Program-made: the position numbers and the translations under genes
Shown here: positions 17,897 through 43,461 of the stretch, in pieces
Layout of the letters: every line of letters starts with the position of its first letter
Position numbering within the stretch: position 1 is the stretch's first letter
Source of the DNA: Hymenobacter chitinivorans DSM 11115
GTDB lineage: Bacteria > Bacteroidota > Bacteroidia > Cytophagales > Hymenobacteraceae
Direction: 5' to 3'
Assembly: GCF_002797555.1 (NCBI RefSeq)
Contig: NZ_PGFA01000001.1
Location: 1,550,001-1,614,000, forward strand
DNA: 64,000 bases
Notes under the pieces: generated by a model
The model's input: only the letters and a program-made list of their open reading frames with translations
Told to the model about the DNA's origin: nothing
The model's database searches: none

Positions 17897-17993
17897 CAAA
17901 GCTCCGACCCGGAGCCCGCCGAAAAGCTGACGAACGTCAGGTGCCGCGCTGATTCATCTCAGCCTAAACTCCCGGACCGAACCCGCATCTTTG
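17897..17993. promoter_or_regulatory. Divergent promoter with paired CTGA-N6-TCAG dyads (ccoI / membrane protein-haemoglobin)
   Basis: Two perfect dyads, CTGACGAACGTCAG at 17927-17940 and CTGATTCATCTCAG at 17949-17962, have centres exactly 22 bp apart. On the minus strand GAGCTTTG (17897-17904) and on the plus strand CATCTTTG (17986-17993) resemble the TAnnTTTG -7 element; their 5' ends are 29.5 and 30.5 bp from the nearest dyad centre. This predicts activator binding at about -41 for both directions. Same layout as at 21.9, 24.4 and 43.4 kb. Confidence 0.75.
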
Positions 17994-18060
17994 CCGTGTT
18001 GTTCCGTGCTGGTCGGGCCGCCGCTGCTGTCGGTCCGACCAGCTTTTTTGCCTGCGTATT

Positions 18061-18555
18061 ATGCCTCGTTCCCACGCTCCTGCTGCCCTGCTGCTGGTGC
18101 TGGCCCTGTTCGTCTGGGCCGGTATGGTGGCCGGCATTTCCTTTCTGGAAGCCCCGCTTAAGTTCACCGCGCCTAATATTACGGTGCCGTTGGGGCTGGG
18201 CATTGGCCGTATCGTGTTTGCCGCGCTGAATAAAGTAGAGCTGCTGCTGGCCGCCGTGGCCGTGGGCAGCGCGTTGGTATTGCGCGTGCCGGCCCATCTT
18301 GCCACCACCCTGGGGTTGCTCAGCGGCGTGCTGCTGCTCCAAACCTTCTGGCTCTTGCCCGCTTTGGATGCGCGGGCCCTGGCTTTGCTGGCCGGCCACC
18401 CGGCCCCGCCCAGCTCCCTGCACCTGGTCTATATCGGCCTGGACGTGGTGAAGCTGCTGACCCTGCTGCTCACCGGCAGCTGGGCCTTCCGCTGGGCGCT
18501 GCAGGTAGCCCGCGGGCAGGTCCTCAACCGTAAAGCCGCCCAGCTGGCCGCCTGA
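18061..18555 (+). CDS. Four-helix integral membrane protein, function unknown
   Basis: A 164-residue hydrophobic protein with about four membrane helices (about 8-28, 48-74, 80-102 and 122-146). The pattern WAGMVAGISFLEAPLKF and the helix start GIGRIVFAALNKVE resemble DUF4149/TMEM205-type proteins, but the match is only by eye. It lies 26 bp before the truncated haemoglobin gene, so they form a likely operon, and shares the regulated divergent region with ccoI. That context suggests a role under low oxygen, perhaps in haem or redox physiology. Confidence 0.75.
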   Translation: MPRSHAPAALLLVLALFVWAGMVAGISFLEAPLKFTAPNITVPLGLGIGRIVFAALNKVELLLAAVAVGSALVLRVPAHLATTLGLLSGVLLLQTFWLLPALDARALALLAGHPAPPSSLHLVYIGLDVVKLLTLLLTGSWAFRWALQVARGQVLNRKAAQLAA

Positions 18556-18581
18556 TTGCCCGATTGTATTTCCCCCTGCTC

Positions 18582-18971
18582 ATGACTGATTCCCGCCCCG
18601 ATATTCAGACCGAAGCCGACGTGCAGCGCCTGGTCGATACCTTCTACCAGAAAGTAAACCAGGACGAGCTGCTCGACCCGGTCTTCAACGGCTTTGCCCA
18701 CGTAGATTGGCAGCGCCACCTGCCCATTATGTACGATTTCTGGAGCAGCCTGCTGCTGGGCACCTCGCGCTACTCGGGCCGGCCCTTCCCCAAGCACATG
18801 CCGCTGCCCGTTGATGCCACCCACTTCACCCGCTGGATGCAGCTCTTCGAAGCCACCGTCGATGAGCTTTTCGCCGGCCCCGTGGCCGATATTGCCAAAG
18901 TGCGGGCCCTGAATATTGCCACCATGTTTGAGTACCGCCTCCGCAAGCGCGACCCGCTCTCATTGCTGTAA
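18582..18971 (+). CDS. Group III truncated haemoglobin
   Basis: A 129-residue globin of the 2-on-2 fold. Family signs: LVDTFYQKVNQDELLDPVF at the start, LPIMYDFWSSLLLG in the B-E region, YSGRPFPKHMPLP, and the proximal His in DATHFTRWMQLF (about residue 81). Group III proteins are linked to microaerobic oxygen or nitric-oxide handling. ATG at 18582 chosen over one 18 bp upstream because the family sequence begins here. Probably co-transcribed with the membrane protein before it, under the paired dyads at 17.9 kb. Confidence 0.9.
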   Translation: MTDSRPDIQTEADVQRLVDTFYQKVNQDELLDPVFNGFAHVDWQRHLPIMYDFWSSLLLGTSRYSGRPFPKHMPLPVDATHFTRWMQLFEATVDELFAGPVADIAKVRALNIATMFEYRLRKRDPLSLL

Positions 18972-18980
18972 ACCACCAAA

Positions 18981-19037
18981 CGTCCTGTCGACCATTCTGC
19001 GCTTCAAGCAGAGAGGAGACATCTCGCGTGCTGACGT
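18981..19037. repeat. Half copy of palindromic repeat family B
   Basis: Matches the left arm of the family B repeat at 3305-3412 (CATTCTGCGCTTC and GGAGACAT-TCGCG are shared). Its right arm is missing, and a family A palindrome follows directly, as if one repeat had been interrupted by the other. Confidence 0.6.
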
Positions 19038-19050
19038 TGTAGTGGCGTAT

Positions 19051-19147
19051 GTCATGCTGAGCGAAGTCGAAGCATCTCTACTGCTTCGTTGTCAAAGCAA
19101 TTTGATTACCACTGCGGTAGAGATGCTTCGACTTCGCTCAGCATGAC
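19051..19147. repeat. Palindromic intergenic repeat, family A (perfect 30-bp arms)
   Basis: GTCATGCTGAGCGAAGTCGA... at 19051-19080 is perfectly complementary to 19118-19147. Family members occur at 53879-53990 and 56894-56979. It sits between the converging haemoglobin and regulator genes. Confidence 0.85.
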
Positions 19148-19180
19148 GTTCTATAGTAACTAAGCTAACGGCCCCAACCG

Positions 19181-20229
<1,049 letters not shown>

Positions 20230-20233
<4 letters not shown>

Positions 20234-21825
20234 AGCGGAATGGTGATGGTGACGGTCGTGCCCACGTTCAGCTCACTGTCCAGCGCAATCGTGCCATCCA
20301 TGAGCTCCAAATAGCGGGCAATGATGTAGAGGCCCAGGCCGGTGCCGGGCAGGTTGGCCGCGTTGCGGGCCCGGAAAAACCGCTCGAACAAGTGCTCCTG
20401 GTCTTCCCTCGAAATGCCCAGGCCCTGGTCCTGCACCCGCAGGGTGAGTTGGCCCGGCTGGCAGTCGGCCAGCACGCGCACCAGGGAGTTTTCGCCCGAG
20501 TACTTAATGGCGTTGGAAAGCAGGTTGACCAGGATTTTGCGCAGCAACGACGGGTCGAGGCGCACCGGGCCGGGGCAGAGGACCTGCCGCTCGATACGCT
20601 GCCCGGTTTTGAGCATGCCCTGCACGTCGAGCACGGTTTCTTCCAGCAGGCCGCCCAAATCCAGTTCCACCGGCCGGGCTTCGATTTTGCCTTCCTCAAT
20701 GCGGCCCACCGAGAGAAACTCTTCCAGAATATCGTTCAGGTGGTTCACCGAGGCCCGAATGCGCTGCAAATGCTTCAGGCGCTTGTCCTGCTGCTCGGTG
20801 GCGGGGTATTTCTCGATCAGCGTGGCCGAGGTAAGCACCGCCGTGAGCGGGGTCCGGAACTCGTGGGAGGCCATGCTCACGAAGCGCGACTTGAGCTCCC
20901 CCAATTCCTGCTCGGCGGCCAGGGCCTGGGTCAGCTCCTGGCCGCGCTGCTCGAGCTGTTCCAGGGTGCTGAGCAGGGCGTGGGTGCGGTCGGCTACTTT
21001 CTGCTCGAGCTCGGCGTTGAGGCGCTCCACGTACTCGCGCTGGGCAATCAGCTCCCGCTCAGCTTCCTTTTTAAAGGTGATGTCGAGCACGTAGGCCACC
21101 ACGTAGAGCTCCTCGTCGAGGTGGAAATAGCTCAGGCTGACTTCCACCGGGAACACCGAGCCGTCTTTGCGCTGGCCCAGCAGGTCGCGGTTGTGGCCCA
21201 TGCCCCGCACCGAGGGTTTCTCATTAAAGGAAGCCCGGAGCTTGTCGTGGTGGCGGCCGGCGGCGTTGGGCACCAGCACGTCGATGCTGCGGCCCATGAG
21301 CTCCTGGGGCCGGTAGCCGAAGAGCTGTTCGGACAGCTGGTTGGCCGAGACGATGGTGCCGGGCCGGTCGCAGACGATGATGCCGATGGTGGCATTGGTA
21401 AAGACGGCTTCGAAGCGGCGCACGCTGTGGGCCAGCTCCCGCTCGGCCTGCTGCAGGCGGTTTTGCTCGGTGAGGCGTACCAGCAGGTACGGCTGCCCGC
21501 TGTGCTCAAAATACGCCAGCTCGACCCGGCCCCAGAACGTACCGCCCGCACCGTAGCGCCGGATTTCGGCCTCAATTTCCTGGCGGCCTTCGCGCCGGGT
21601 TTGGACGCACAGGGCTTCCCACTGGCCCTCGGCCCAGGGTGTGGCGCGCAGGGTGCGACTGGGGTCCGCGAGAAAATCCGCTTCCGACGGGTAGCCCAGC
21701 AGCTGCAGCCCGGCCGGGTTGACCTGGGTAAACCAGCCCCGGGTCAGGTCATAAATTCCCACAAACTCCCGGGCCTGGGTGTAAAGCAAATCGAGCAGGG
21801 CGGGAGCGAAGGAGGCAGGCAGCAT
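20230..21825 (-). CDS. PAS-domain sensor histidine kinase, partner of the CRP-fused regulator
   Basis: A 531-residue soluble kinase with no membrane segment. Order: PAS 1 (about 10-115), PAS 2 (about 130-245, FEAVFTNATIGIIVCDRPG), a coiled coil (about 250-310), HisKA with the phospho-His in FVSMASHEFRTPLTAVLTSA (about 325-344), and HATPase (NLLSNAIKYS, DQGLGISREDQEHLFERFF, GTGLGLY). The ATG at 21825 is preferred to one 114 bp upstream, which lies in the regulatory dyads. A cytoplasmic signal such as redox state or oxygen is plausible, but the PAS domains show no obvious haem or flavin residue. Stop overlaps the regulator ATG (translational coupling). Confidence 0.93.
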
Positions 21826-21871
21826 AGAGCGGAATACGCGCCCGAGCAGCAGAAAGGCCCGGCGGCGGGTG

Positions 21872-21969
21872 CGAAGATAAAAGACGGCAGCTTGGGGCCG
21901 GGGCTGATAAAAATCAGGTAGCCCCCTGACCGGCATCATCCCGGCGGCCGGACCGGGCCGGTAATTTTA
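21872..21969. promoter_or_regulatory. Divergent promoter with paired dyads (kinase-regulator / thioredoxin-like)
   Basis: Dyads CTGATAAAAATCAG (21904-21917, perfect) and CTGACCGGCATCAT (21926-21939, one base off) have centres 22 bp apart. On the minus strand TATCTTCG (21872-21879) is 31.5 bp from the nearest dyad centre; on the plus strand TAATTTTA (21962-21969) is 29.5 bp away. This suggests that the kinase-regulator pair controls its own expression. Confidence 0.7.
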
Positions 21970-21995
21970 CGGCTGCACCCTTAGCCCGAGTTCCG

Positions 21996-22331
21996 ATGTC
22001 CACTTTTCCTTCCCATTCTGTGCGGCCCCCCGAGGCGGCGGTGCTGCTGGTGCTGCTGCCCGCGGTGGGCGCGGTCCGCCCGGCCCCAGCCGCCCTACAG
22101 GCCCTGCAGCGGCAGCTGGGCTCGGCCGTGCGGGTGCTGCGGGTAGAGGAGGCCCGCCACCCGGCCGTGGTGCGCAGCTTTGCGGCCACCGAGCTGCCGG
22201 CCCTGGTGCTGGTGCAGCAGGGCGTGGAGCTCTGGCGCCACCAGGGCCTGCCCACTGACGAGGCCCTGGCCCCGCTACTGCTCAGCAAGCTCCGGCCCAC
22301 GGTGCCAGTCCTGCCCCAGGCGGTGCCCTAA
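21996..22331 (+). CDS. Thioredoxin-like protein lacking the CxxC motif
   Basis: A 111-residue protein with an N-terminal beta-alpha unit and the pattern VRVLRVEEARHPAVVRSFAA followed by ELPALVLVQQGVELWRHQG, as in the central and cis-Pro part of thioredoxins (the P of ELPALVL is the cis-Pro). The usual CxxC is absent: there is no Cys at all, so it cannot do disulfide exchange. It may be a scaffold or binding partner. The promoter region, shared with the kinase genes, carries two dyads, so low-oxygen control is likely. Confidence 0.7.
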   Translation: MSTFPSHSVRPPEAAVLLVLLPAVGAVRPAPAALQALQRQLGSAVRVLRVEEARHPAVVRSFAATELPALVLVQQGVELWRHQGLPTDEALAPLLLSKLRPTVPVLPQAVP

Positions 22332-22402
22332 GCGTACTGCGGCGGGCTAGGCAGGCCGGCAGGATACGTTGCCGCCAAGGGAAGCAGGCTCGAGTCGTAG
22401 CT

Positions 22403-22519
22403 TCTCATTTTTATTTTAATAGGTACTCCTCATCTGGCGTACCTTCTCAATTTTATTTTAGTAGGTACTCCACAATTGGCGTACCTATCAGATTTTATTT
22501 TGAAAGGTACTCCTGGGCT
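22403..22519. repeat. 2.8 tandem copies of a 42-bp hairpin-forming repeat
   Basis: Units at 22403-22444, 22445-22486 and 22487-22519 (partial). Each starts with an AT-rich TTTTATTTT part, then AGGTACTCC, and the first two end with GGCGTACCT, which pairs back with AGGTACTCC (one mismatch). The rest of the 300-bp gap between the converging genes (22332-22631) shows no gene. Confidence 0.8.
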
Positions 22520-22631
22520 AAGCCCTTGCCCTGGCTGCCCCACTCACCCCGGTTATCCCTCTGAGCCCAGGGACGAATAGTGCTCACCTGAGGAAAAGGA
22601 TGCAGGCCGACCAGCTTGCAGAGTATCGGAC

Positions 22632-24248
22632 CTACCAAATTTCACGGCCCGCGGCGGCAGTTGGGGCAGGACGAGGCTTAGCCGGTAAGGCCGTAGGGCC
22701 AAACAGCGCCTTGCGCAGGGGCTCGTCGAGGTGGTAGATATCGGGCAGGAAGCGCAAGTGGCCGTTTTCGGCCACGCAGGTGGCGTAGCGGATGTGCAGG
22801 GGCAGGGCGCGGTGCAGTCGCACGTCGCGGGGCTGGGGCTGGCGGGCGCACTCGGCCTCGTTGGGCAGAGGCTCCCGGCGGCCTTCGCGCCGCAGCAGGT
22901 AGGCGGCCAGCCGCAGGGGCTGTTCCAGCCGGACGCAGCCGTGGCTCAGGGCCCGGTCGGGGCGGGTGAAGAACTGGCGCATGGGCGTGTCGTGCAGGTA
23001 CACCGAGTAAGGGTTGGCAAAGCGAAAGACGATGTTGCCCAAGGCATTGTCGCAACCCGCCGCCTGCCGGATGGAATACCCAAAGCCGCGGGCCGTGACC
23101 TGGCGCCAGTCCACCGAATACGGGTCGAGCGGCAGGCCCCGGGCGTCATAGAGGCTGAGGCCGTTGCGGGCCAGGTAGCCGGCGTCTTCCCGCAGGCGGA
23201 GCAGCATTTCCTTTACGGCAATGGAGCGGGGCACCCGCCACTCGGGGGCCAGGGTAAAGTAACTGACGCGGCTGCTGAGCGTGGGCGTGGGCGTTTCGGG
23301 CTTGCCCACAATGACGCAGTGCCGGCGCACCACCGAGTCGTGGGCTACCACCTGCAGCTCGTAGGCCGGAATGTTGATCAGGATGTATGCTGAGTCGGGC
23401 GGCAGGGTCTCCCAGCGCCACCGCTCCAGATTCAGGGCCGCGTGCTCGTACTGCACCTGCCGGAAGACGGCCGAGTCGGGAGCTACGGGCCGGGTCAGCC
23501 ACCGGGCCAAAGCCTGCTGCAGCTGCCGGTACTCGCAGTGGGTGGGCTGGGCGGCCCGCAGGGTGGCCGCCACGGTATTGCCGGACAAGGCCGCGCGCAG
23601 CTCCTCGGCTGGCTGCCAGACCTGCCCCCGCGCTTTTTCCCGCCCCGCCACGGTGTAGGTCCGGAGCCGGCCCCGGCCCAGGTCGAGCATGAAACGCAGC
23701 ACGGCGTCGGTGAGAAGGAGTTCCAGCCGGGCCTGCTGCCGGGCCCGCCGACCGGAGGCAGTGGGCCGGGTCAGGGAGTCGCGCAGGGCCCGCAGGCGGG
23801 AGCCGCCGTAGTCGGCCGGGCGCAGGCCAAATTCCCGGGCCCGGTGCAGCAAGGCCAGCGCCTCCCGGGCTGGAGCATTCAGGCTGTCCGCCGCCAGCGT
23901 CCAGGCCGGTAGCACTTCCGCACCGTAAAACCGCCGCACCGCCGCGCCCACCTCCAGGCCCAGGCGCGCATCGGCCGCGGCGGCGCTGCCGGCCGCCGTG
24001 GTATCGAGCAGGGCCCGCAGCAGCGGGCCGGCCGACGCGGGTTCCGGGTCACGAAACTGGGCCAGGACCACGGCCGGCAGCTCCCCAACGCGGGCCGGAG
24101 AGGAGCACCAGCTAGTTAGCAAGAGCAAAGGGGCCACCCAGCTCAGCCGCCAGCCGCGGCCGGCCCGGCGTGGGTTTTGGGCGGCGGTGGCAGCACCGGA
24201 AGGATGGTCGGAGCTTGGGGAAGCCGCAGAAGAAGAAGGTGCGCGCAT
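22632..24248 (-). CDS. L,D-transpeptidase (YcbB/LdtD type) with scaffold domain
   Basis: A 538-residue cell-wall enzyme that makes 3-3 cross-links in peptidoglycan or attaches proteins to it. After an N-terminal membrane anchor (about residues 30-55), residues 90-280 form the scaffold/peptidoglycan-binding-like part, and residues about 295-470 form the YkuD catalytic domain: ILINIPAYELQVV, IVGKPETPTPTLSS, and the catalytic SHGCVRLEQP (Cys at about 445). Promoter-like TACTCTTG at 24331-24338 with a dyad 29.5 bp upstream suggests control by the CRP-type regulator. Wall change under starvation or hypoxia would fit. Confidence 0.88.
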   Translation of the reverse strand: MRAPSSSAASPSSDHPSGAATAAQNPRRAGRGWRLSWVAPLLLLTSWCSSPARVGELPAVVLAQFRDPEPASAGPLLRALLDTTAAGSAAAADARLGLEVGAAVRRFYGAEVLPAWTLAADSLNAPAREALALLHRAREFGLRPADYGGSRLRALRDSLTRPTASGRRARQQARLELLLTDAVLRFMLDLGRGRLRTYTVAGREKARGQVWQPAEELRAALSGNTVAATLRAAQPTHCEYRQLQQALARWLTRPVAPDSAVFRQVQYEHAALNLERWRWETLPPDSAYILINIPAYELQVVAHDSVVRRHCVIVGKPETPTPTLSSRVSYFTLAPEWRVPRSIAVKEMLLRLREDAGYLARNGLSLYDARGLPLDPYSVDWRQVTARGFGYSIRQAAGCDNALGNIVFRFANPYSVYLHDTPMRQFFTRPDRALSHGCVRLEQPLRLAAYLLRREGRREPLPNEAECARQPQPRDVRLHRALPLHIRYATCVAENGHLRFLPDIYHLDEPLRKALFGPTALPAKPRPAPTAAAGREIW

Positions 24249-24330
24249 GGGAAGGGGAGCAGAGCTGGAGCCTCGGAGCCGGTTGAGCAGCCCTGGCGGA
24301 GCTCAGTAGCAAGGGTGTTCAGGCCAGCTG

Positions 24331-24426
24331 CAAGAGTAGCCGAAACGCCGCCCCGGACAACTGACAAAAATCAGCTGCGGCGCCTGACTTCCGGCAGGGG
24401 AAGACCAGCCCCGCGGCGCGTTCTTG
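24331..24426. promoter_or_regulatory. Divergent promoter with paired dyads (L,D-transpeptidase / usp)
   Basis: Perfect dyad CTGACAAAAATCAG (24361-24374) and imperfect dyad CTGACTTCCGGCAG (24384-24397), centres 23 bp apart. On the minus strand TACTCTTG (24331-24338) is 29.5 bp from the first dyad centre. On the plus strand the best -7 candidate is CGTTCTTG (24419-24426), weak, 28.5 bp from the second. This is the weakest of the four regions on the plus side. Confidence 0.65.
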
Positions 24427-24458
24427 CTGCCGCATTCTCACCCTTTCACTTCCTGGCA

Positions 24459-25268
24459 ATGGCTGCTTCCCTGCTTGTACTGACCGACTTCCGCCAGCCC
24501 GCCGCCCGGGCCCTGGACTATGCCGCCGCGCTGGCCGGGGTGCTGGAAGCGCCGCTGGTGGTGCTGCACGTGTGTGCCCCCGGTATTCTGGACTCCGAGC
24601 TGCTCACCGCGCCCCAGCCCCGCCGCAGTCCGGACGTAGCGGCCCGGGCCCTGGCCTGCCTCACGGAAGATTTGCCGGTACCGGCCGTAACCGAAGTGCA
24701 GCAGGGCCGCGTGGCCGAGGCCGTAACCGGGGCCTTGCGCCAGCACCAGCCCGCCCTGCTGGTGCTGGGCCGCCCGCGCCACGAGGAGCTGCCCGACGAG
24801 CTGGCCACGACCACGGCCCTGGAGCTGCTGCCAACCACAACCCGGCCCATGCTGGTCGTGCCCGAGCAAGCCGTTGTGGGGCTGCCCCGCCGGGTGCTGC
24901 TGGCCCTAGATAACGAGCCGTATGAGCTGCCCGAATCGGCCCTTGTGGTGGACCGGCTGCTAAACCCGCTGCACGCCCGCCTTACGGTTTTGCACGTTGG
25001 GGCCGGGCCCGCTGAGGAGGCCGCCCGGCCCGCTGAGGAGGCCGCGGCGCTGCTGGGCCTGAGTCCGGAGCTGCCGCTCAAAACCCGGACGCTGCGCCAC
25101 GCCTGGCCCGCCGACGCCATTCTGGCCGCCGCCGGGAGCGGGGAGTTCGACCTGGTCATTCTGCTGGCCCGGCGGCGGAGCGTGCTCGGCCACCTGTTTC
25201 ACCACAGCGTCACGGCCCAGGTGCTGCTGCACAGCCCGGTGCCGGTGCTGGTACTACCCGCCCAGTAG
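24459..25268 (+). CDS. Universal stress protein, two tandem Usp domains
   Basis: A 269-residue cytoplasmic protein. Domain 1 is about 1-135 (LLVLTDFRQPAARALDYAAAL ... LLVLGRPRHEEL ... RPMLVVPEQ) and domain 2 about 140-269 (VLLALDNEPYELPESAL ... FDLVILLARRRSVLGHLFHHSVTAQVLLHSPVPVLVLP). The canonical GxxGxxxxG ATP loop is degenerate in domain 1. A seven-residue duplication (PAEEAAR/PAEEAAA, 25008-25049) lies in domain 2. A paralogue with the same layout is at 42477. ATG at 24459 chosen since the family begins there. Expression probably follows the dyads 60-100 bp upstream. Confidence 0.88.
   Translation: MAASLLVLTDFRQPAARALDYAAALAGVLEAPLVVLHVCAPGILDSELLTAPQPRRSPDVAARALACLTEDLPVPAVTEVQQGRVAEAVTGALRQHQPALLVLGRPRHEELPDELATTTALELLPTTTRPMLVVPEQAVVGLPRRVLLALDNEPYELPESALVVDRLLNPLHARLTVLHVGAGPAEEAARPAEEAAALLGLSPELPLKTRTLRHAWPADAILAAAGSGEFDLVILLARRRSVLGHLFHHSVTAQVLLHSPVPVLVLPAQ
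25008..25049. repeat. Two copies of a 21-bp in-frame repeat inside the usp gene
   Basis: CCCGCTGAGGAGGCCGC begins at 25008 and again at 25029; it adds the heptapeptide PAEEAA[R/A]. A recent slip-type duplication is likely. Confidence 0.8.
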
Positions 25269-25275
25269 CGGTGGC

Positions 25276-25350: not shown

Positions 25351-25390
25351 TGGTCAATGACTGCCGGGCCGGCGCGGCGCGGGCCGCTAC

Positions 25391-34633: not shown

Positions 34634-34635
34634 TG

Positions 34636-35788: not shown

Positions 35789-35789
35789 A

Positions 35790-36100
35790 GTTGTTAGTTG
35801 ATTGTTGTTCGTTGATTGTTGTTAGTTGTTAGTTGTTGGTTGATTGTTGTTAGGCAGTCTGTCCTCCTGAGGCGCAGCCGAAGGACCTGCCTCGCCTTCG
35901 TGACAAGCATCATTCAACGTACCAAAGCCCTTTTCTGCTTGCGCGGAAAAGGGCTTTGGTACGTTGGTACAATCCTCAGTGGGGTAGGTAAGGAAGGTCC
36001 TTCACTCTGCTTCGCGCCGTTCAGGATGACAGATCTAACAACTAACAACAATCAACTAACAACAATCAACTAACAACAGTCAACTAACAACAATCAACTA
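35790..36100. repeat. About 300-bp nested inverted repeat (family C core with 14-bp tandem arms)
   Basis: The outer arms are tandem repeats: GTTGTTAGTTGATT-type on the left (about 35790-35853) and four and a half copies of AACTAACAACAATC on the right (36040-36100). Inside is a family C repeat (about 35854-36034: GTCCTCC ... GAAGGACC ... GGAAGGTCCTTC), and in its centre a perfect 20-bp hairpin at 35916-35935 / 35946-35965. Another family C copy is at 58585-58762. No gene in this gap. Confidence 0.8.
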
Positions 36101-36101
36101 A

Positions 36102-36136
36102 AAAAGCCCTGACTACCGCGGTAGCCAGGGCTTTTG
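36102..36136 (-). terminator. Terminator after pdhB
   Basis: AAAAGCCCTG-A-CTACCGCGGTAG-C-CAGGGCTTTT, a long hairpin with one mismatch and flanking A/T runs. Confidence 0.85.
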
Positions 36137-36157
36137 CTTGCCTTAGAAAAGCTGAAA

Positions 36158-37141
<984 letters not shown>

Positions 37142-37236
37142 AATCAGATTACAGGAATTCGAAACGTCAGAAACAAAATGCCGGAAATTTTCCGGCCCGT
37201 AAAGCTACAACGACAAGCCGGGACGGGCAAGCACGA

Positions 37237-37447
37237 TTACGATTCAAGTTGCCGCCGCCCCGGCAGTCGCTCGGCTATTGCCGAGTGACGCCTATGCGGA
37301 GGGGCTCTGCCCCGGGCGTCCCGTGCCGTGTGGCCGTTCTGCTGGCGCGCGGTAATTCGCAGCAGAGCTGCTCACGCGTAGTCGTCACTCGGCATAGCCG
37401 AGCGACTGCCGAGAAGACTGTTTAGGATTCAAGTTGCAGCCGCCCCG
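37237..37447. repeat. Inverted-repeat element bracketed by a 26-bp duplication of a gene 3' end
   Basis: Arms 37261-37290 and 37383-37411 are inverted (CGGCAGTCGCTCGGCTATTG ... with one single-base gap) around a 92-bp centre without a gene. Outside them is a direct repeat: 37237-37262 and 37422-37447 (24 of 26 identical). The right copy is the 3' end of the 142-residue protein gene, including stop codon TAA; the left copy still encodes the same ending, with one residue changed (GRRQLES and stop). It looks like a MITE-like insertion with duplication of the target. Confidence 0.7.
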
Positions 37448-37850
37448 TAGCCGCATTCACTTTGATTCCCCACTCGCTTTCGAAGTATAAGAGTACGTCG
37501 TAATCCGGTTGGGCATCCTTGTTAAAATAGATGTTCTCAAACTCCTCTCGCGCCTCCGTCGGTGTGCGGCAAATATGTTGCACCGTGCTGTCCTCGGAAA
37601 AAGGATATTCTGGGTCCCGCTCTTTCACCCGCAGGTAGCTCACACCTTCAAAAACCAGGTGCAGCGCCGGCCACGGCACATTCCGGGCCCATTCACCCGT
37701 CGATTTCTGCCACGACAGCCGTAGCGTAGCGGCGGCCGGGTTGTAGCGCAGCTCTACGAAATCGAAGTCGTTGTGCAAATCAGCGTAGCCGCCGTTGGCC
37801 CATTCCAGTCCGATATTCTGCTTGTCGAGAGTGAAGTTTATAAAGTCCAT
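37422..37850 (-). CDS. Hypothetical 142-residue protein
   Basis: Soluble protein, start at ATG 37850 (a longer frame to 37928 is possible but has weaker codon use). Pattern is mixed alpha/beta: VELRYNPAAATLRLSW (about 33-48), HLVFEGVSYLRVKERD, and YDVLLYFESEWGIKVNAATG at the end. I do not recognise the family. Its last eight codons are duplicated at 37237-37262, on the other side of an inverted-repeat element, as if the element had inserted at the 3' end. Confidence 0.7.
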   Translation of the reverse strand: MDFINFTLDKQNIGLEWANGGYADLHNDFDFVELRYNPAAATLRLSWQKSTGEWARNVPWPALHLVFEGVSYLRVKERDPEYPFSEDSTVQHICRTPTEAREEFENIYFNKDAQPDYDVLLYFESEWGIKVNAATGRLQLES

Positions 37851-37892
37851 AGGCCGGTAAGGTAGCAGCTGATTGACACTTTTGGCCGCTGT

Positions 37893-37971
37893 AGAGACGC
37901 ATAGTTGCGTCTCCTCGTTGAACGACAATCGTTGGTACGGCGCCTACGACGAGACGTAAGAATGCGTCTCT
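37893..37971. repeat. Palindromic intergenic repeat, family F
   Basis: GTAGAGACGCA...GCGTCTC at the left pairs with GAGACG...TGCGTCTCTAC at the right. The interior contains AACGACAATCGTTG, a word also present in the family E repeat at 59144. Confidence 0.75.
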
Positions 37972-37982
37972 ACATCGTTCAC

Positions 37983-38171
37983 ACCGCTTCGAAGATCATT
38001 GCCGTTGCTTAGTAGCTCATTCACGGCTCTTCGAAGACCATTTCCACCGCTTCGAAGGTCATTGCCAGCCTTTAGAAGATCATTTCCACTGCTTCGAAGG
38101 TCGCTTCCACCGCTTAGTGAATCATTTCCACCGGTTCGAAGCTCATTTCCACCGCTTAGAAGGTCGTTGCC
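37983..38171. repeat. Minisatellite: nine 21-bp tandem repeats
   Basis: Unit is close to ACCGCTTCGAAGGTCATTTCC; copies differ at several positions. As 21 is a multiple of three it stays open in more than one frame: on the minus strand it would read as a heptapeptide G-N-D-L-R-S-G (37944-38237), on the plus strand as S-F-P-P-L-R-R (37999-38184). Neither has a clear start site or family. It is flanked by family F and family E palindromes. Confidence 0.85.
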
Positions 38172-38190
38172 GGTGGCGGCGTAGTAGCGC

Positions 38191-38253
38191 GAACCGTGTA
38201 GTTCGTGTGCCAAAACGACTCTACTGGCGCGGGGCACGCGAACTACACGGTTC
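38191..38253. repeat. Palindromic intergenic repeat, family E
   Basis: GAACCGTGTAGTTCG.GTGCC at 38191-38211 pairs with 38233-38253 (one mismatch in 21). Related copy at 59144-59266 (GTAGTTCGTGTG). Confidence 0.8.
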
Positions 38254-38383
38254 TGCGATGGTTCACGGCGGCGCAGTAGTGCGAACTTGGTAGTTGGCGC
38301 TTTATACCGACTTACCTGCCTAGGAACGGGTTACCAGGGTAGAGCTGCCGTTCAACGAAGCGACGATTAGGCCACCCCGCCCT

Positions 38384-38414
38384 TCGGGCACCCCTCCTTG
38401 AAAAAAGGAGGGGA
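38384..38414 (-). terminator. Hairpin downstream of the TPR lipoprotein gene
   Basis: CCCCTCCTT / AAGGAGGGG, with A-rich loop. The T-tract is weak, but it is the first stem after the stop codon at 38426. Confidence 0.55.
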
Positions 38415-38425
38415 GTTTCGTTCTG

Positions 38426-40234
38426 TTACCGCAACGCTTCGAGGAACACTTTGCCGGCGGCGTAGTCCCGGAACTCCAGGTCCTCGACGGCGCGCTGGGC
38501 GTAGGCGCGGTCCAGCTGCACGGCGCGGCGCAGGAACTGGCCCATCTGGGCTTCGTCCTTGGTGCGGGCCGCTACTACGGCCAGGCAGTAGTAGGCCAGC
38601 GGGTCGCTGGGCTTCAGGTCCAGGGCTTCGCGGTAAATGCCGGCGGCGCCCTCGTAGTTGCTTTTGAGCAAGTAAATCAGGGCCCGGTTCATGGTGTTCT
38701 GGTAGGTTTTGCCGCTGTAGCTGATGCTGCCCAGGGCATCATCGAGCTGCCCGACTTCGATTTCCAGGGCGGCTTTGTCGGCAAAGACTTTTTCCAGCAC
38801 CGGCCGCGGGCCGCCGAGCTTGATGGCGTAGTCGTAGTTCTGCAGGGCTTCGAGCCGGTCGCCGGCCCGGTGGTAGGCCGTGCCCACGCGGTAGAACAGG
38901 TCGGCGGTGGGGTTGCGGTGGGCGGCCAGGGTGAAGTTGGTGGCGGCCCGGCGCAGGTAGGCCTTGCGCACCTTGTCACTGACTTCCTTCTCGGAGCGTT
39001 GCAAGAGCACCACGGCCAGGTTGTGGTAGGCTTCCCAGCGGCCGGTGGTGGCCACGGCCGTTTCGTAGATGCGCTGCTTTTCGGCCAGCAGGGGCGTGAG
39101 CGTGGCCGAGTAGCGCAGCTCCTCGGGAGTCAGCGCGTCGGCCTCCATTTCCTTCTCCACAATCTTTTTGGAGAGCAAATAGATTTCCGAGTCGTAGCGC
39201 TTGGGGGCGGTGTACTCCACGGCCACCGTGCCGAAGCGCATCACCGGGTAAATGTACTGGTCGAGGTAATCGTAGAAAGACAGGGCCCGCAGCTGCCGCT
39301 CCTTCTGGGCAAACGAGCCCTTGGAGTCGTTAATCAGCAGCACCACCGAGTCGATCTGGGCGGGCTTGAGGGCCGAGTTCTGGACCTTGTTCAGAAACAG
39401 GTCCCAGCGCCGGTGGTAAGCCACGGTTTCAAACTTGATGTCGCCGACCTTATTCAGGTACGAATCGGTATCGACGCGCTTCTTGTAGTAGCGCAGCAGG
39501 CCCTGCACCCGCTTATCGGCCAGGCGGGCGTCGCGGGCGTCGATAGAGTCGGGGGAGTGGCCGGCGGCAATCATCACCTTCTTGGTGTGCTGGTTGGCCT
39601 CGATAAAGTCTTCCAGAGCCTGCACGTTGGTGCCCAAATAATTGCGAATGGCGGCGCTGCCCTGGTCGAAGAAGAAGGGCAGGATGCGGGTGCCGCTCAT
39701 GTTGTTGTCGGCCGTTTCGGGCAGCAGGCCGATGGCCGTATCCTGGCGCACCACCAGCCGGCCCGTCGTGACGATGCCGCGGGCCAACCGAAACGGAGTG
39801 CCTTTCACCCGCTTGCCGTTGGGCTTGAGCTGGTGGGCATCGGGCAGAACCAGCAGCTCCCCGGGGCTTTTGCGGGGCGAGTAGGGAAAGGAAAACTGCT
39901 TGGTGATGACCAGCTCGTCTTTTTTCTCGGTGTCGTAGGTGTACTCGCCCGAGACGAAGGTGAGGCGGCCCACGGTGTCTTCGCGCAGGCCGTTGTCGTA
40001 GCGGTAGCTCAGGGCCAGGTTGTAGGCGTTGCCCTTCTTGAGGTGCTTGGCCGGCACCCGGGCCGAGACTTCGAACAGCACATTCTCGCCGTTGCTTTCC
40101 AGCACCGAGGGCTGCACCGTAACTTGCTGACCTTCTTGCGCAACCTTTAGCATCCGGGGCAACGTACAACCCGGCAGTGCGGCTGCGGCCAGCACTACCC
40201 ACCCGAACGGAAACAAGCGCAAATAAACTCTCAT
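38426..40234 (-). CDS. Outer-membrane lipoprotein with OmpA-like and TPR domains
   Basis: A 602-residue lipoprotein (lipobox LAAAALPGC, Cys23). Residues 25-160 form a beta-rich N-terminal domain (LFEVSARVPAKHLKKG); residues about 175-330 resemble an OmpA-like peptidoglycan-binding part (ILPFFFDQGSAAIRN ... LEDFIEANQHTKKVMIAAGHS); residues 395-600 hold TPR units (AYHNLAVVLLQRSE, ADLFYRVGTAYHRAGDRLEALQNYDYAI, PLAYYCLAVVAARTKDE). It probably links the envelope to peptidoglycan. No neighbours in operon. Confidence 0.8.
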   Translation of the reverse strand: MRVYLRLFPFGWVVLAAAALPGCTLPRMLKVAQEGQQVTVQPSVLESNGENVLFEVSARVPAKHLKKGNAYNLALSYRYDNGLREDTVGRLTFVSGEYTYDTEKKDELVITKQFSFPYSPRKSPGELLVLPDAHQLKPNGKRVKGTPFRLARGIVTTGRLVVRQDTAIGLLPETADNNMSGTRILPFFFDQGSAAIRNYLGTNVQALEDFIEANQHTKKVMIAAGHSPDSIDARDARLADKRVQGLLRYYKKRVDTDSYLNKVGDIKFETVAYHRRWDLFLNKVQNSALKPAQIDSVVLLINDSKGSFAQKERQLRALSFYDYLDQYIYPVMRFGTVAVEYTAPKRYDSEIYLLSKKIVEKEMEADALTPEELRYSATLTPLLAEKQRIYETAVATTGRWEAYHNLAVVLLQRSEKEVSDKVRKAYLRRAATNFTLAAHRNPTADLFYRVGTAYHRAGDRLEALQNYDYAIKLGGPRPVLEKVFADKAALEIEVGQLDDALGSISYSGKTYQNTMNRALIYLLKSNYEGAAGIYREALDLKPSDPLAYYCLAVVAARTKDEAQMGQFLRRAVQLDRAYAQRAVEDLEFRDYAAGKVFLEALR

Positions 40235-40338
40235 AGGCGAAAAAGCTAGGCAGTACGGAGGCAGGGCGGAAATTCTGGCCTACAAACGTAAAAACTGCCG
40301 GGAGGGGTCAGAAATTGTGTTCAATTGTAGCCGCTGAG

Positions 40339-40396
40339 CTTGCCGTCCGCGGGTTTTCTTGTTATTTTGAGGAGCAGTAACCGGTTCAACCGGTTA
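40339..40396 (+). promoter_or_regulatory. PspC promoter with overlapping tandem palindrome
   Basis: -33 CTTG at 40339-40342, 19-bp spacer, -7 TTATTTTG at 40362-40369. Just downstream TAACCGGTTCAACCGGTTA (40378-40396) is a perfect 9-1-9 inverted repeat made of two AACCGGTT palindromes. Its place at about +2 to +20 fits a repressor operator. AGGAG at 40402-40406 acts as ribosome binding site. Confidence 0.6.
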
Positions 40397-40409
40397 AAAA
40401 TGAGGAGCT

Positions 40410-40628
40410 ATGAAACGACTAACCGACTTCATCGAACAGCAGAGCTTTGGTGTCTGCAATGCTTTGGGGAACCGTTTGGGCTTCTCCAGCAGCAGTGTGC
40501 GCCTGTCCTTTGTCTACGCGTCGTTCTTCACCTTTGGCTCGCCCATCGTGCTGTACTTCGCCCTGGCCTTCTGGATGAACGTGCGCCGGGCCATGCGCCG
40601 GCAGCGCAGCACCGTCTGGGACTTGTAA
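40410..40628 (+). CDS. PspC-domain membrane protein
   Basis: A 72-residue protein with a single long hydrophobic segment (about 34-56, FVYASFFTFGSPIVLYFALAF). The order 'NALGNRLGFSSSSVRLSFVYASFF' is the Bacteroidetes PspC-domain form. Such proteins are envelope-stress responsive. It has a ribosome binding site (AGGAG) 4 nt upstream of the ATG, unusual in this window, and a perfect palindrome between promoter and start. Confidence 0.88.
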   Translation: MKRLTDFIEQQSFGVCNALGNRLGFSSSSVRLSFVYASFFTFGSPIVLYFALAFWMNVRRAMRRQRSTVWDL

Positions 40629-40666
40629 GTGAAGTGGTGAAGTGGTGAGTTGGTGAAGTAGCCGTT

Positions 40667-41773
40667 TTAAGAAGGGGTGGGGCTTGCTGCGTCTTGCATT
40701 CCGCCAAATTCTTGCGGGCTGAGCTGACTAAAAGCGCGAATTCCTTTACCGAAATAGGCCCAGACGAGGCTGCCCTGGTACACGCCGGGGCGGTGGCGGG
40801 TCAGAAGTTTTTGCGGGTGCTGCCGGCGCTTTTGCTGCCAGTAGCGGCGCTGGTTGAAAAAGTCGCGGTGGGCGCGCAGGATAGCTTTGCCGTCGGCGGT
40901 GTTGCCTTGGAGCAGAAAGCGCAGGGCCGCCACCCAGTCGAGCACCAGCCGGGCCCCGATAACCCTAATTAGCTCCGGCTCGGCCACGTTCTTGTAGACC
41001 AGGGCCAGGCCGTTGCGGAAGTTGAGGTAGGTTTTGCGCGGGTTCGACTTGTGCAGCGTGCCGCCGCCCACGTGAAAGACCGTGCTGCCGCCGTGGTACC
41101 ACACCTGCTGCCCCGCGTTCCAGAGCCGCCAGCAGAGGTCAATTTCCTCCATGTGGGCAAAAAAGGCCGGTTCCAGGCCGCCCAGCTGCTGCCAGGCGGC
41201 GGCCCGCACCATCATGCAGGCGCCCGTAGCCCAGGCCACGGGGCGTGGGTCGTCGTACTGCCCGAGGTCTTTTTCGAGCGTGTCGAAGAGCCGGCCCCGG
41301 CAGAAAGGGTAGCCTAGCCCGTCGAGGTAGCCCCCGCCGGCCCCGGCGTACTCAAACAGCTCGCGCTGGGCCGCCTCGGGGCTGTACTGCCGGATTTTGG
41401 GCTGGCAGGCGGCTACTTCCGGGCGGGTTTCGAGCAGCTCCCGCAACGGGCGCAGCCAGCCGGGCGTCACCTCCACGTCGGAGTTGAGCAGCAGGTAATA
41501 TTTGGCCTCCACCTGCTGCAAGGCCCGGTTGTACCCGTCGCAAAAGCCTAGGTTCTCGGGGTTCTGAATGATTTCGACCTGCGCAAACTCGTTGCGCAGC
41601 ACGGCCACTGAGTCATCGGTGCTGGCGTTGTCGGCCACGATGATGCGGGCCCCGTCGGAGCAAGCCAGCACGGCGGGCAGGAACTGCCGCAAAAACTGCT
41701 GCCCGTTCCAGTTCAGAATCACCACGGCCACGTCGGCACACGGGCCGCCGGGGCCGGCCCCGCTAGAGGCCAA
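40667..41773 (-). CDS. Glycosyltransferase family 2
   Basis: A 368-residue GT-A fold enzyme. VVILNWNGQQFLRQFLPA at about 17-34, IIVADNASTDDS (about 45-56), LLLNSDVEVTPGW (DxD-like, about 94-106), and the acceptor-site WATGACMMVRAAAW and HMEEIDLCWRLW (about 205-216). Rhamnosyltransferase-like (WbbL type). The start is uncertain: a TTG at 41773 overlaps the stop of the YbaB gene by 11 bp; GTGs at 41731 or a few codons later are alternatives. Co-transcription with ybaB is likely. Confidence 0.85.
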   Translation of the reverse strand: MASSGAGPGGPCADVAVVILNWNGQQFLRQFLPAVLACSDGARIIVADNASTDDSVAVLRNEFAQVEIIQNPENLGFCDGYNRALQQVEAKYYLLLNSDVEVTPGWLRPLRELLETRPEVAACQPKIRQYSPEAAQRELFEYAGAGGGYLDGLGYPFCRGRLFDTLEKDLGQYDDPRPVAWATGACMMVRAAAWQQLGGLEPAFFAHMEEIDLCWRLWNAGQQVWYHGGSTVFHVGGGTLHKSNPRKTYLNFRNGLALVYKNVAEPELIRVIGARLVLDWVAALRFLLQGNTADGKAILRAHRDFFNQRRYWQQKRRQHPQKLLTRHRPGVYQGSLVWAYFGKGIRAFSQLSPQEFGGMQDAASPTPS

Positions 41774-42098
41774 AGCTGCCCAAATCGAAGCCGGGAATGT
41801 TGGGTAGCAGGCCGGAAGTCTTGCTTTTGAGCTCTTCCTTGCCTTTTTCGCCGGCTTCGTTCATGGCCTTGTTCACTGCCGCTACCACTAGGTCGGCCAG
41901 CATGTCGCGGTCCTGGGGCGTGAGCAGGGTCTCGTCGATATCGAGCTTGAGCAGCTGGCGGTGGCCGTTTACGGTGGCCTTCACCAGTCCCCCGCCCGAC
42001 TCGGCCGTGACAGTCAGGTACTGCAGTTCGCTCTGGGCTTTCTGGAGCTTTTCCTGGAGCTCCTTGGCTTTGCCCATCATGCCCATCATGTCAAACAT
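41763..42098 (-). CDS. YbaB/EbfC nucleoid-associated protein
   Basis: A 111-residue DNA-binding protein. MMGKAKELQEKLQKAQSEL (about 4-23) starts the family helix, followed by VTAESGGGLVKATVNGHRQLLKLDID (strands), and the last helix (DMLADLVVAAVNKAMNEAGEKG). The C-terminal GLLPNIPGFDLGSFGL is Bacteroidetes-typical. ATG at 42098 selected since an upstream frame lacks family sequence. Usual genomic neighbours such as dnaX or recR are not adjacent. Confidence 0.92.
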   Translation of the reverse strand: MFDMMGMMGKAKELQEKLQKAQSELQYLTVTAESGGGLVKATVNGHRQLLKLDIDETLLTPQDRDMLADLVVAAVNKAMNEAGEKGKEELKSKTSGLLPNIPGFDLGSFGL

Positions 42099-42398
42099 AG
42101 GGTCTATTCGTTGTTTCCAGCAAGCTGGAAGGGTGGTTGCATTAAATGGAATACGGGAAAGGCAGGCGGGAAGAGACGTTGGAGCCGATAATTCTGGCCC
42201 CACTTCACCCACCGGCCTTACGGCGTACGGAAAGCAGAATTGCGGGGCAATTTACGCAAAGCCCCCGCACCTTAACCGCCCGGGAGCCGCGCGGCCACGG
42301 AAGCCGCCGACACCACAGCCGCCCGCCGCCCCGGAAACGTCCTGAAACGGCCGCGCTTACCCACGGCCGCCCGCCGCTGCCGGGCTGCCCCGTAAACG
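42099..42398. other. Intergenic region, no gene recognised
   Basis: 300 bp between ybaB and the usp gene, both minus. The stretch 42280-42400 is very C-rich on the plus strand. No convincing ORF, dyad pair or repeat family was seen. It likely holds the ybaB promoter near 42100-42200. Confidence 0.4.
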
Positions 42399-42444
42399 CC
42401 ACCTGCTGCCCCCGCCCGGCGGAGCGGACAAGGGCAGCAGGTGG
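42399..42444 (-). terminator. Perfect 13-bp hairpin downstream of usp
   Basis: CCACCTGCTGCCC / GGGCAGCAGGTGG (42399-42411 with 42432-42444), 20-nt loop. Followed on the plus strand by CTGCATTTTT. Confidence 0.7.
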
Positions 42445-42476
42445 CTGCATTTTTACAAAAAAGCTGACGATACAGG

Positions 42477-43301
42477 CTACGCCGTGGTAGGCAACACCAG
42501 CACGGGTACTTTGCTGTGGCGCAGCACCTGGGCCGTGACGCTGCGGTGAAACAGGCCGCCCAGGAAGCTGTGGGGCCGGGCCAGTACCACTACCATTTCG
42601 GCCTGCAGCTCCTCGGCCGCCTGCAGAATGCCGTCGGCGGGTGCCGCTTCCCGGATTTCGTAGAGACTGTTGCCGGTAAGGGAGCCAAACAGACCCGTGC
42701 GCTGCACCGAGGCCAAGCCCACGTCGGCCCGGCTGGGGCCCGATTCCGGGGCGACGTGGACTACGGTGGTGGTGGCGTAGCAGTGGTCCAGCAGCTCCGA
42801 CAAGGCCAGGGAAGGCGCCGTCAGCCAGAACGGCTGGTCGTCGGCGGCTACCACCAGGCGGCGGGGCAGCCGGGAGCTGGTATAGCCTTCGGGCACGAGC
42901 AGCAACGGGTAGCGGGCCGCCTGCAGAATGGGCGTGGCCTGCAGCCGAATCAACTGGTCGAGCAGAGTGGGGTCTTTTTCGCGGCCCAGCACCAGCAGCA
43001 GCGGGTGATGCACCTGCACGGCTTCGGCCACCGCGTCGCGGAAGGGGCCGACGGCCAGCTCGGCGCTGGCCGGAATGGGCAGGCGCAGGGCCCGCTCGAC
43101 CAGCTCGCTGAGCAGAACCTTCCGGCTTTCCAGCACCAGCGGCACCGTTACCATCGCCGCTTCGGGCACCACCATGGGGTCCTGGTACACGTGCAGCAGC
43201 TGCAGCCGGCCACTGAGCCGCTGGGCCAGCAGCGTGGCGTAGGTCAGGGCCGATTCGGCGGCCGTTGATAAGTCGGTAAGTACAACGAAGGCGGGTAGCA
43301 T
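42477..43301 (-). CDS. Universal stress protein, two tandem Usp domains
   Basis: A 274-residue paralogue of the Usp at 24459. Domain 1 about 1-140 (FVVLTDLSTAAESALTYATLLAQ ... LLLVLGREKDPTLLDQLI ... YPLLLVPEG), domain 2 about 145-274 (LVVAADDQPFWLTAPSLALSE ... MVVVLARPHSFLGGLFHRSVTAQVLRHSKVPVLVLP). The C-terminal block F-L/H-L-F-H-R/H-S-V-T-A-Q-V-L is nearly the same in both paralogues. ATG at 43301 begins the domain. Paired dyads upstream (43384-43419), shared with pta, suggest common control. Confidence 0.9.
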   Translation of the reverse strand: MLPAFVVLTDLSTAAESALTYATLLAQRLSGRLQLLHVYQDPMVVPEAAMVTVPLVLESRKVLLSELVERALRLPIPASAELAVGPFRDAVAEAVQVHHPLLLVLGREKDPTLLDQLIRLQATPILQAARYPLLLVPEGYTSSRLPRRLVVAADDQPFWLTAPSLALSELLDHCYATTTVVHVAPESGPSRADVGLASVQRTGLFGSLTGNSLYEIREAAPADGILQAAEELQAEMVVVLARPHSFLGGLFHRSVTAQVLRHSKVPVLVLPTTA

Positions 43302-43353
43302 GACAGTAGATTTTGTGGTGGAGAACCGGACGCGGCAGGCAGGGCCGATGGTG

Positions 43354-43461
43354 TAAAAGTCGGCTACCCGGGCCCGGCCGCACATGACGCGCATCAGCCA
43401 AACGCCTGACCTTTATCAGGCCGCGGGCCAGGGGTTAACTCGGTGGTGCCCGCTACTTTTG
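43354..43461. promoter_or_regulatory. Divergent promoter with paired dyads (usp / pta)
   Basis: Dyads ATGACGCGCATCAG (43384-43397, one base off) and CTGACCTTTATCAG (43406-43419, perfect, extended to GCCTGA...TCAGGC) have centres 22 bp apart. On the minus strand GACTTTTA (43354-43361) is 29.5 bp from the first dyad centre. On the plus strand TACTTTTG (43454-43461), an exact -7 element, is 41.5 bp from the second, about one helical turn farther than in the other regions; pta then has a leader of about 150 nt. Confidence 0.7.

Follow-up and report, generated by a model that had tools for sequence, protein, structure and literature searches.

Of the systems described so far, the one that most resembles the locus considered here is the FixL-FixJ-FixK2 cascade of Bradyrhizobium diazoefficiens. 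The excerpted text of PMC9104804 presents FixK2 as a CRP/FNR-type protein that is induced by FixLJ, binds the 14-bp palindrome TTGA/C-N6-T/GCAA and controls fixNOQP, and it counts a universal stress protein (Usp) gene with a FixK2 box among the genes falling in a fixK2 deletion; the role of FixLJ is also covered in an excerpt of PMC4999443. The locus described here lies in a 64,000-nucleotide stretch of Hymenobacter chitinivorans DSM 11115 (hereafter the window: positions 1550001-1614000 of contig 1 in a genome of 5.87 Mb), where four pairs of CTGA-N6-TCAG dyads accompany the genes of a histidine kinase and a response regulator. An initial annotation of this DNA had proposed that the dyads define a CRP/FNR-type regulon. 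That reading is supported by the present analysis and can be refined: the likely regulator is a fusion of receiver, cNMP_binding and HTH_Crp_2 domains that is encoded in the window itself.

We consider it quite likely that this fused receiver-CRP/FNR regulator, standing behind a PAS kinase, binds the dyad pairs and activates the cbb3 oxidase, globin, Usp, phosphate acetyltransferase (pta) and its own genes together. The evidence, all of it drawn from sequence, comprises the fused architecture of the regulator, the place of its gene under a pair, the fixed spacing of the dyads, their fixed distance to a -7 element, the presence of a partner dyad, the co-occurrence of regulator and sites across genomes, and the way in which the outer operator base tracks the recognition helix.

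Dyad pairs and promoter geometry

All eight dyads that the initial annotation had grouped into four pairs are present, with centre spacings of 22, 22, 23 and 22 bp (operators A to D), and the five that it called perfect are indeed so, the remaining three having one mismatch each. Operator A consists of two perfect dyads, at 17927..17940 on the ccoI side and at 17949..17962 on the globin side. Operator B has a perfect dyad at 21904..21917 facing the kinase-regulator operon and one with a single mismatch at 21926..21939 facing a thioredoxin-like gene. The perfect dyad of operator C (24361..24374) is on the side of an L,D-transpeptidase gene and its partner with one mismatch (24384..24397) on that of a Usp gene, and in operator D the dyad with one mismatch (43384..43397) is on the Usp side and the perfect one (43406..43419) on the pta side. 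Dyads as such are common in the window, which holds 41 with at most one mismatch versus 16.6 +/- 4.3 in shuffles. Three more are perfect, all of them unpaired, at 1000, 8927 and 15508; the last of these (CTGATGGGCATCAG, 15508-15521) falls within the 3' part of ccoI. The dyads at 1000 and 8927 are reverse complements of each other, but their identity stops after about 15 bp, and they are therefore not parts of a longer repeat.

Scans of the whole genome at 22 and 23 bp, allowing at most one mismatch, returned operators A, B and D of the window as the only pairs at 22 bp and, at 23 bp, operator C and a fifth pair at position 1411577 of contig 1. All five sit between divergent genes, in agreement with the intergenic placement expected of them. 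The reversed pattern gave 3 matches versus 22 for the true pattern at 22 bp (at most three mismatches), and none versus 2 at 23 bp (at most two mismatches).

The same spacing prevails in relatives, which were sampled as the best 80 of 554 confirmed loci around orthologues of the regulator. Exact TGA-N6-TCA pairs occur in these loci 102 times at 22 bp, 33 times at 23 bp and twice at 24 bp, with at most 5 at each of the other spacings from 14 to 80 bp, and neither ten dinucleotide shuffles nor five other three-base words gave any pair at 22/23 bp in the 80 loci. The proposed enrichment of pairs at this spacing is thus borne out (135 exact pairs versus 0 in ten shuffles), as is their conservation in other Hymenobacter. 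Five exact dyad pairs in the 80 loci are spaced at 44 bp, which suggests occasional triple dyads at 22 + 22 bp. One Spirosoma locus (L089, 1187-1271) carries two tandem pairs 49 bp apart, hence four dyads, flanked on either outer side, at 22 bp, by a -7-like element (1 or 2 mismatches).

The initial annotation had placed a TAnnTTTG-like -7 element 28.5 to 31.5 bp outside the nearest dyad in every direction except that of pta, and this claim proved mostly right. Five of the eight directions have an element with at most one mismatch located 22-24 bp past the outer dyad edge: ccoI (GAGCTTTG, 17897..17904, minus strand, 22 bp), the operon of the membrane protein and globin (CATCTTTG, 17986..17993, plus strand, 23 bp), the kinase-regulator operon (TATCTTCG, 21872..21879, minus strand, 24 bp), the 111-amino-acid thioredoxin-like gene (TAATTTTA, 21962..21969, plus strand, 22 bp) and the L,D-transpeptidase (TACTCTTG, 24331..24338, minus strand, 22 bp). 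The match is weaker for the Usp gene at 42477 (GACTTTTA, 43354..43361, minus strand, 2 mismatches, 22 bp) and for that at 24459 (CGTTCTTG, 24419..24426, plus strand, 3 mismatches, 21 bp). The pta gene is the exception that it was said to be, with no -7 element at the usual distance and a perfect TACTTTTG (43454..43461, plus strand) 34 bp from the dyad edge. The letters of GAGCTTTG recur ahead of an open reading frame of ccoI length in many relatives, and the element on the kinase side of operator B leads us to predict autoregulation of the kinase-regulator operon through this operator.

Of 131 distinct flanks of 66 CTGA pairs in relatives, including those of the window and of locus L016, 65 have a -7 element (at most one mismatch) that begins at exactly 22 bp from the edge of the dyad, the next most frequent offset accounting for 6; since many flanks are orthologous, these 65 do not represent 65 independent events. 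The 22-bp distance is common to the promoters of ccoI, ccoN, the thioredoxin-like gene and the globin operon. No -33 TTTG-like sequence appears in the averaged profile of the 131 flanks. An apparent second -7 position at 12-13 bp from the dyad is an artefact, as ACnTTTG sits inside the adjoining dyad. Promoters of the Bacteroidota type are numbered by elements at -33 and -7. If transcription starts about 5 bp past the -7 element, the dyad centre would lie near -41.5 and that of its partner near -63.5, and the fixed 22-bp gap would then match the class II activator position that had been suggested for the dyads.

The same data bear on the role of the second dyad. Among 139 dyads that are exact and have an exact AnnTTTG correctly spaced from them, a partner 22/23 bp upstream is exact in 115, has at most one mismatch in 131 and at most two in 137, compared with 0, 1 and 7, respectively, at a control spacing of 18/19 bp. 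A side was scored as promoter-like if AnnTTTG, allowing one mismatch, lay 22-24 bp from the dyad; on this basis 31 of 140 pairs had a -7 element on both sides, 108 on one and 1 on neither. The idea that each pair serves two divergent promoters, one per dyad, consequently describes some pairs and is not a general rule. Because 131 of the 139 proximal dyads keep a partner, the pair is better described as a tandem operator for one promoter and sometimes two. The retention of the second dyad even where it has no evident promoter would fit two dimers acting together, presumably cooperatively, on one promoter.

The fused regulator, its kinase and the outer operator base

The response regulator (19181..20233, minus strand; 350 amino acids) has a receiver at residues 4-115 (PF00072, 3.6e-27), a cNMP-binding fold at 162-245 (PF00027, cNMP_binding, 7.3e-22) and a CRP-type helix-turn-helix (HTH) at 279-347 (PF13545, HTH_Crp_2, 8.5e-17). 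By its domains, it is both a member of the CRP/FNR superfamily and a response regulator. D9, D52, T82 and K104 of the receiver and E315 and R319 of the recognition helix (314-326, which also bears I318) are invariant in 38 sequences. The four cysteine ligands of FNR are absent, and since the only cysteine is C51, in the receiver, the protein is not an iron-sulfur (Fe-S) FNR. An AlphaFold2 model has a mean pLDDT (predicted local distance difference test) of 85.8 and a pTM (predicted template modelling score) of 0.58. The Foldseek matches listed for it are CRP/FNR-type proteins by E-value; template modelling (TM) scores of about 0.3 (query) and 0.45 (target) and root-mean-square deviations of 15-19 mean that the match is by domain and that the domain arrangement is unsure. 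The regulator shares 94% identity with one from Hymenobacter aquaticus and belongs to a large family, in which 7,957 of 7,999 scored candidates pass 1e-40 and the 120 members listed all have receiver, cNMP-binding and HTH_Crp_2 domains. The genome encodes only two HTH_Crp_2 proteins, this regulator and an FNR-like protein, encoded on contig 3, whose N-terminus bears a cluster of cysteines and whose helix is ETASR. The window regulator is the likely protein acting on the dyads, being neither a free CRP nor, by its cysteine content, an Fe-S FNR.

Its gene overlaps by 4 bp that of a PAS-HisKA-HATPase histidine kinase (20230..21825, minus strand), and the two form one operon under operator B. The kinase start was set at a 531-amino-acid frame because the longer open reading frame begins at 21939, within the operator. 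Of the 80 loci, 75 have a frame of at least 400 amino acids that ends at the regulator start and aligns with the kinase. Residues were compared in 76 of 81 kinases, after exclusion of five loci with an upstream frame below 400 amino acids. Among 60 PDB matches listed, the second PAS domain, at about residues 170-300 of the longer open reading frame, is closest to FixL (1d06, 4.1e-11), followed by the heme PAS of Dos/DosP. At position 231, presumably the counterpart of the FixL heme ligand, 73 of the 76 kinases have H, that of the window included; at position 251, which we take to correspond to FixL Arg220, 51 have R and 22 have G. Oxygen sensing by the kinase is plausible on these grounds.

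The outer base of the operator differs between loci according to the helix of the regulator encoded there. The 80 regulators fall into 59 of ESLIR type and 21 of ESLSR type; with a total of at most one mismatch, ESLIR loci contain 61 CTGA pairs and no TTGA pair, and ESLSR loci contain 7 TTGA pairs and no CTGA pair. A tree of 81 regulators that included the helix columns has two helix changes, forced by its starred branches, and a tree without these columns has three. Half-sites whose TGA core is exact carry an outer C in 263 of 412 cases in ESLIR loci, 11 of 84 in the first ESLSR clade and 9 of 44 in the second, and an outer T in 36, 37 and 15 of the same half-sites, respectively. Averaged per locus, the fraction of C is 0.64 for ESLIR (49 loci), 0.13 for the first ESLSR clade (11 loci) and 0.20 for the second (10 loci). 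In an alignment to a Thermus CRP-family protein, I318 stands opposite the S of RETVSR, a position that we take to be that of FNR Ser212. We regard this tracking of the regulator's own helix by the outer base as the best evidence here that the regulator reads these sites. The pair also extends to distant regulators: in 20 of about 60 homologues near 50% identity, with the helix KETVIR (KEAVIR in one), 16 loci have a 22/23-bp pair (at most one core mismatch) together with an exact -7 core.

Regulator, sites and oxidase further co-occur among the 120 genomes of the genus, of which 90 have the regulator at 1e-40 and 30, named partly by subtraction, are regulator-free. A 22-bp pair (at most one mismatch) is present in 57 of the 90 versus 1 of the 30 (p 1.5e-9), and ccoI (at 1e-150) in 67 of the 90 versus 0 of the 30 (p 3.7e-14), although these p-values overstate the association because genomes and loci are related. 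As the regulator-free genomes also lack ccoI, the co-occurrence connects regulator, sites and oxidase with one another and is not proof of binding. The exceptional genome with a pair and no regulator (G185) has no ccoI match. Its pair adjoins the globin operon; a ccoI-type GAGCTTTG still lies 22 bp away, the gene that follows it is a different one, and for these reasons the pair looks like a relic.

Genes of the candidate regulon

On the minus strand, operator A precedes a ccoI-type heavy-metal P-type ATPase of cbb3 oxidase assembly (15441..17876; Pfam E1-E2_ATPase, HMA and ATPase-cat_bd), for which ATPase_P-type was the only NCBIfam model to reach its cut-off; the ccoI label is our assumption. 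It is followed by a small open reading frame of 48 amino acids (15273..15419, minus strand) that is ccoS-like in translation and presumably ccoS. The globin operon on the plus strand begins with a 164-amino-acid membrane protein (18061..18555; hydrophobic sequence, no Pfam match) and continues with a truncated, bacterial-like globin (18564..18971; Pfam Bac_globin, 6.5e-8). Opposite the kinase-regulator operon, operator B faces a 111-amino-acid protein (21996..22331, plus strand) that has no Pfam match and whose thioredoxin-like fold is suggested by its sequence; 42 members of this family, that of the window included, lie beside pairs, and none of the 42 has CxxC. Operator C lies between an L,D-transpeptidase (YkuD; 22632..24248, minus strand) and a tandem Usp protein (24459..25268, plus strand), and operator D between a second tandem Usp protein (42477..43301, minus strand, its start placed at a 274-amino-acid frame) and pta (43619..45712, plus strand, its start chosen at MTKTVF), all four assigned by Pfam.

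The fifth genomic pair lies 138 kb outside the window, between the gene of cbb3 oxidase subunit I (ccoN) and a thioredoxin-family gene (AhpC-TSA). The identity of ccoN is indicated by COX1 (6.4e-123) and by NCBIfam TIGR00780 (676 bits versus a cut-off of 583), and the counterpart in one relative (L019) is a ccoN-ccoO fusion. On the ccoN side, GACCTTTG lies exactly 22 bp from the dyad; on the thioredoxin side no -7 element was found at that distance. Since ccoN belongs to it too, the theme of the core regulon is the cbb3 oxidase. A survey of neighbouring genes covered 82 sources (the window, locus L177 and the 80 loci), 72 of them with pairs, and considered clusters present in at least three loci. 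Beside pairs it found the kinase-regulator operon 43 times, the 111-amino-acid thioredoxin-like gene 42 times, ccoN 32 times, ccoI or related P-type ATPases 30 times, the membrane protein of the window globin operon 16 times, Usp genes 7 times and L,D-transpeptidase 5 times, in addition to several clusters that lack an identity or resemble spurious frames.

Other candidate sites in the genome were left out of the regulon. The pair at 2175984 of contig 1 has two mismatches and lies inside a coding frame, that at 576730 of contig 3 is about 0.2 kb beyond the FNR-like gene, and that at 171285 of contig 1 (TTGATATTTATCAA twice) precedes a short-chain dehydrogenase gene and adjoins another cNMP-binding protein, which has an ETLSR helix. 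This last pair (171285-171319, equivalent to locus L166 1501-1535) consists of two perfect TTGATATTTATCAA dyads 23 bp apart, and together with the ETLSR protein possibly represents a second tandem-operator regulator with an FNR-type alphabet. A single dyad with an exact -7 core ahead of a YceI-like gene (contig 1, 764242) overlaps with the upstream gene's stop codon and is not claimed as a site. Within the window, a near-perfect long inverted repeat with arms GTCATGCTGAGCGAAGTCGAAGCATCTCTAC... lies between the globin and regulator genes (19049-19149; folding -79.4 kcal/mol, z -12.5). Its 23-base core has no second copy in the window; the repeat possibly marks the end of a transcript or is a mobile palindromic element.

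Alternative readings and comparison with described systems

As we picture the system, falling oxygen would turn the kinase on through its second PAS, a putative FixL-like heme domain, and phosphorylation at D52 would promote binding by the regulator. Two regulator dimers would occupy the two dyads of a pair on one face of the DNA; the proximal dimer, near -41.5, would contact RNA polymerase as a class II activator, and the distal one, near -63.5, would add cooperativity or a class I contact. The genes of the cbb3 oxidase, oxidase assembly, globin, Usp, pta and kinase-regulator would be switched on together, probably at low oxygen, through a FixL-FixJ-FixK relay shortened to a kinase and a receiver joined to FixK.

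Several observations count against this account. Ten of the 59 ESLIR loci lack an exact TGA pair, some of them on short contigs, and among the 90 regulator-bearing genomes 33 lack a pair, as counted from the 22-bp CTGA form with at most one mismatch alone, and 23 lack ccoI at 1e-150. The absence of ccoI from regulator-free genomes means that loss of sites could follow loss of targets. The pta direction is off the fixed distance and that of the Usp gene at 24459 is very weak. The 84 half-sites of the KETVIR/KEAVIR loci have 41 A, 17 T, 15 C and 11 G at the outer position; I alone therefore does not set C, and neighbouring residues matter too. The variability of kinase position 251 makes heme-based oxygen sensing less certain.

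The dyads could instead belong to the FNR-like regulator of contig 3, with the receiver-CRP protein merely another target. The FNR box is TTGAT-N4-ATCAA, from which the dyad CTGAY-N4-RTCAG differs mainly at the outer base, and the genome does encode an FNR-like protein. A CRP/FNR-type protein, FixK2, moreover controls a cbb3 oxidase operon elsewhere (excerpts of PMC9104804). Against this, the outer base follows the helix of the response regulator itself, and 29 of the 30 genomes that lack it, as sorted by the response regulator alone, have no pair. Moreover, the FNR-like helix ETASR is of the ExxSR type, and ExxSR helices are expected to read TTGAT. We consider this attribution improbable. We see a similarly slim chance that the receiver-CRP regulator acts as a repressor or derepression switch, its two dimers bridging and blocking divergent promoters: CRP/FNR proteins are able to repress and the pairs are placed between divergent genes, yet a gap of 22 bp separates the proximal dyad from the -7 element, as for a class II activator, the averaged flanks have no -33 TTTG-like sequence and 108 of 140 pairs have a single promoter-like side. 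That the pairs arose as palindromes by chance or form a repeat family deserves next to no credence; the words CTGA and TCAG are common, the window having 41 dyads with at most one mismatch versus 16.6 expected, but the 22/23-bp spacing is absent from ten shuffles and from five other words, and the distance to the -7 element is fixed while the inner bases vary.

A weightier alternative retains the regulator and its operators and concerns the signal alone. What the kinase senses might be light, a small molecule or redox state, in which case the targets would form a general respiratory-stress regulon. PAS folds are versatile, position 251 is not conserved, and Usp, L,D-transpeptidase and pta are not in themselves oxygen genes, so that this possibility falls only a little short of an even prospect. 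It has to be set against the resemblance of the PAS to FixL and DosP, the closest structures among the 60 PDB matches listed, against H231 in 73 of 76 kinases, and against the fact that cbb3 oxidase and Usp genes are FixK2-type targets in the excerpted PMC9104804.

Beyond activation by the fused regulator, we tentatively suggest, with somewhat less than even confidence, that in Hymenobacteraceae and their relatives FixL-FixJ-FixK was folded into a kinase and a receiver-FixK fusion with an obligatory tandem 22-bp class II operator serving one or two promoters, and that the operator alphabet changed two or three times through one helix residue (I/S, outer C/T), keeping the sites apart from those of the cell's FNR. 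If this is true, the helix switch would be a natural change of specificity separating the sites of the two regulators. The I/S swap also provides a natural test case for outer-base reading by CRP/FNR helices. One member of a very large regulator family would gain a predicted site, a core set of targets, a partner kinase and a testable signal; a direct phospho-switch would be tied to the microaerobic respiration of Bacteroidota, and the dyad, a 22-bp gap and AnnTTTG would form a clean promoter code for activators of this phylum.

Among described systems, DosRST and the dormancy regulons resemble the present one in having a kinase-controlled regulator of Usp and truncated-globin genes. The output domain of DosR is a LuxR-type HTH and that found here is a CRP-type HTH, and the system is therefore not a DosRST member. 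E. coli FNR and CRP class II promoters have a dyad near -41.5 that overlaps the -35/-33 region, and their regulators have an E..xR helix. The window regulator shares the helix type and would share the dyad position, but it has no Fe-S cysteines, carries a receiver fused in front and has a second dyad two helical turns upstream at nearly all promoters examined. The CRP/FNR structures 4ev0 (Thermus) and 2gau (Porphyromonas gingivalis) are among the best sequence matches to regulator residues 135-347, and both, with A. fischeri FNR, are among the Foldseek matches by E-value; none of the sequence or Foldseek structure matches listed is described as a fusion of receiver and CRP modules. Likewise, the titles and abstract starts among the matches listed from the open-access PubMed Central literature name no such regulator, regulon or layout.

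The likeness to FixL-FixJ-FixK2, as excerpted from PMC9104804, extends to a CRP/FNR-type protein as predicted activator of cbb3 oxidase genes, a predicted Usp target and a sensor kinase on top, and the kinase PAS resembles FixL by sequence. Operators upstream of ccoN and ccoI likewise give a FixK-like layout as far as placement goes. The differences lie in the receiver and CRP/FNR output, which are one 350-amino-acid protein here, so that there is no FixJ step and no separate FixJ feeding FixK; in the near-obligatory tandem pair at 22/23 bp with C rather than T as the outer base; and in a promoter of the Bacteroidota -7 type in a different phylum. Judged by its domains, then, the system is neither FixLJ-FixK by the strict definition nor FNR.

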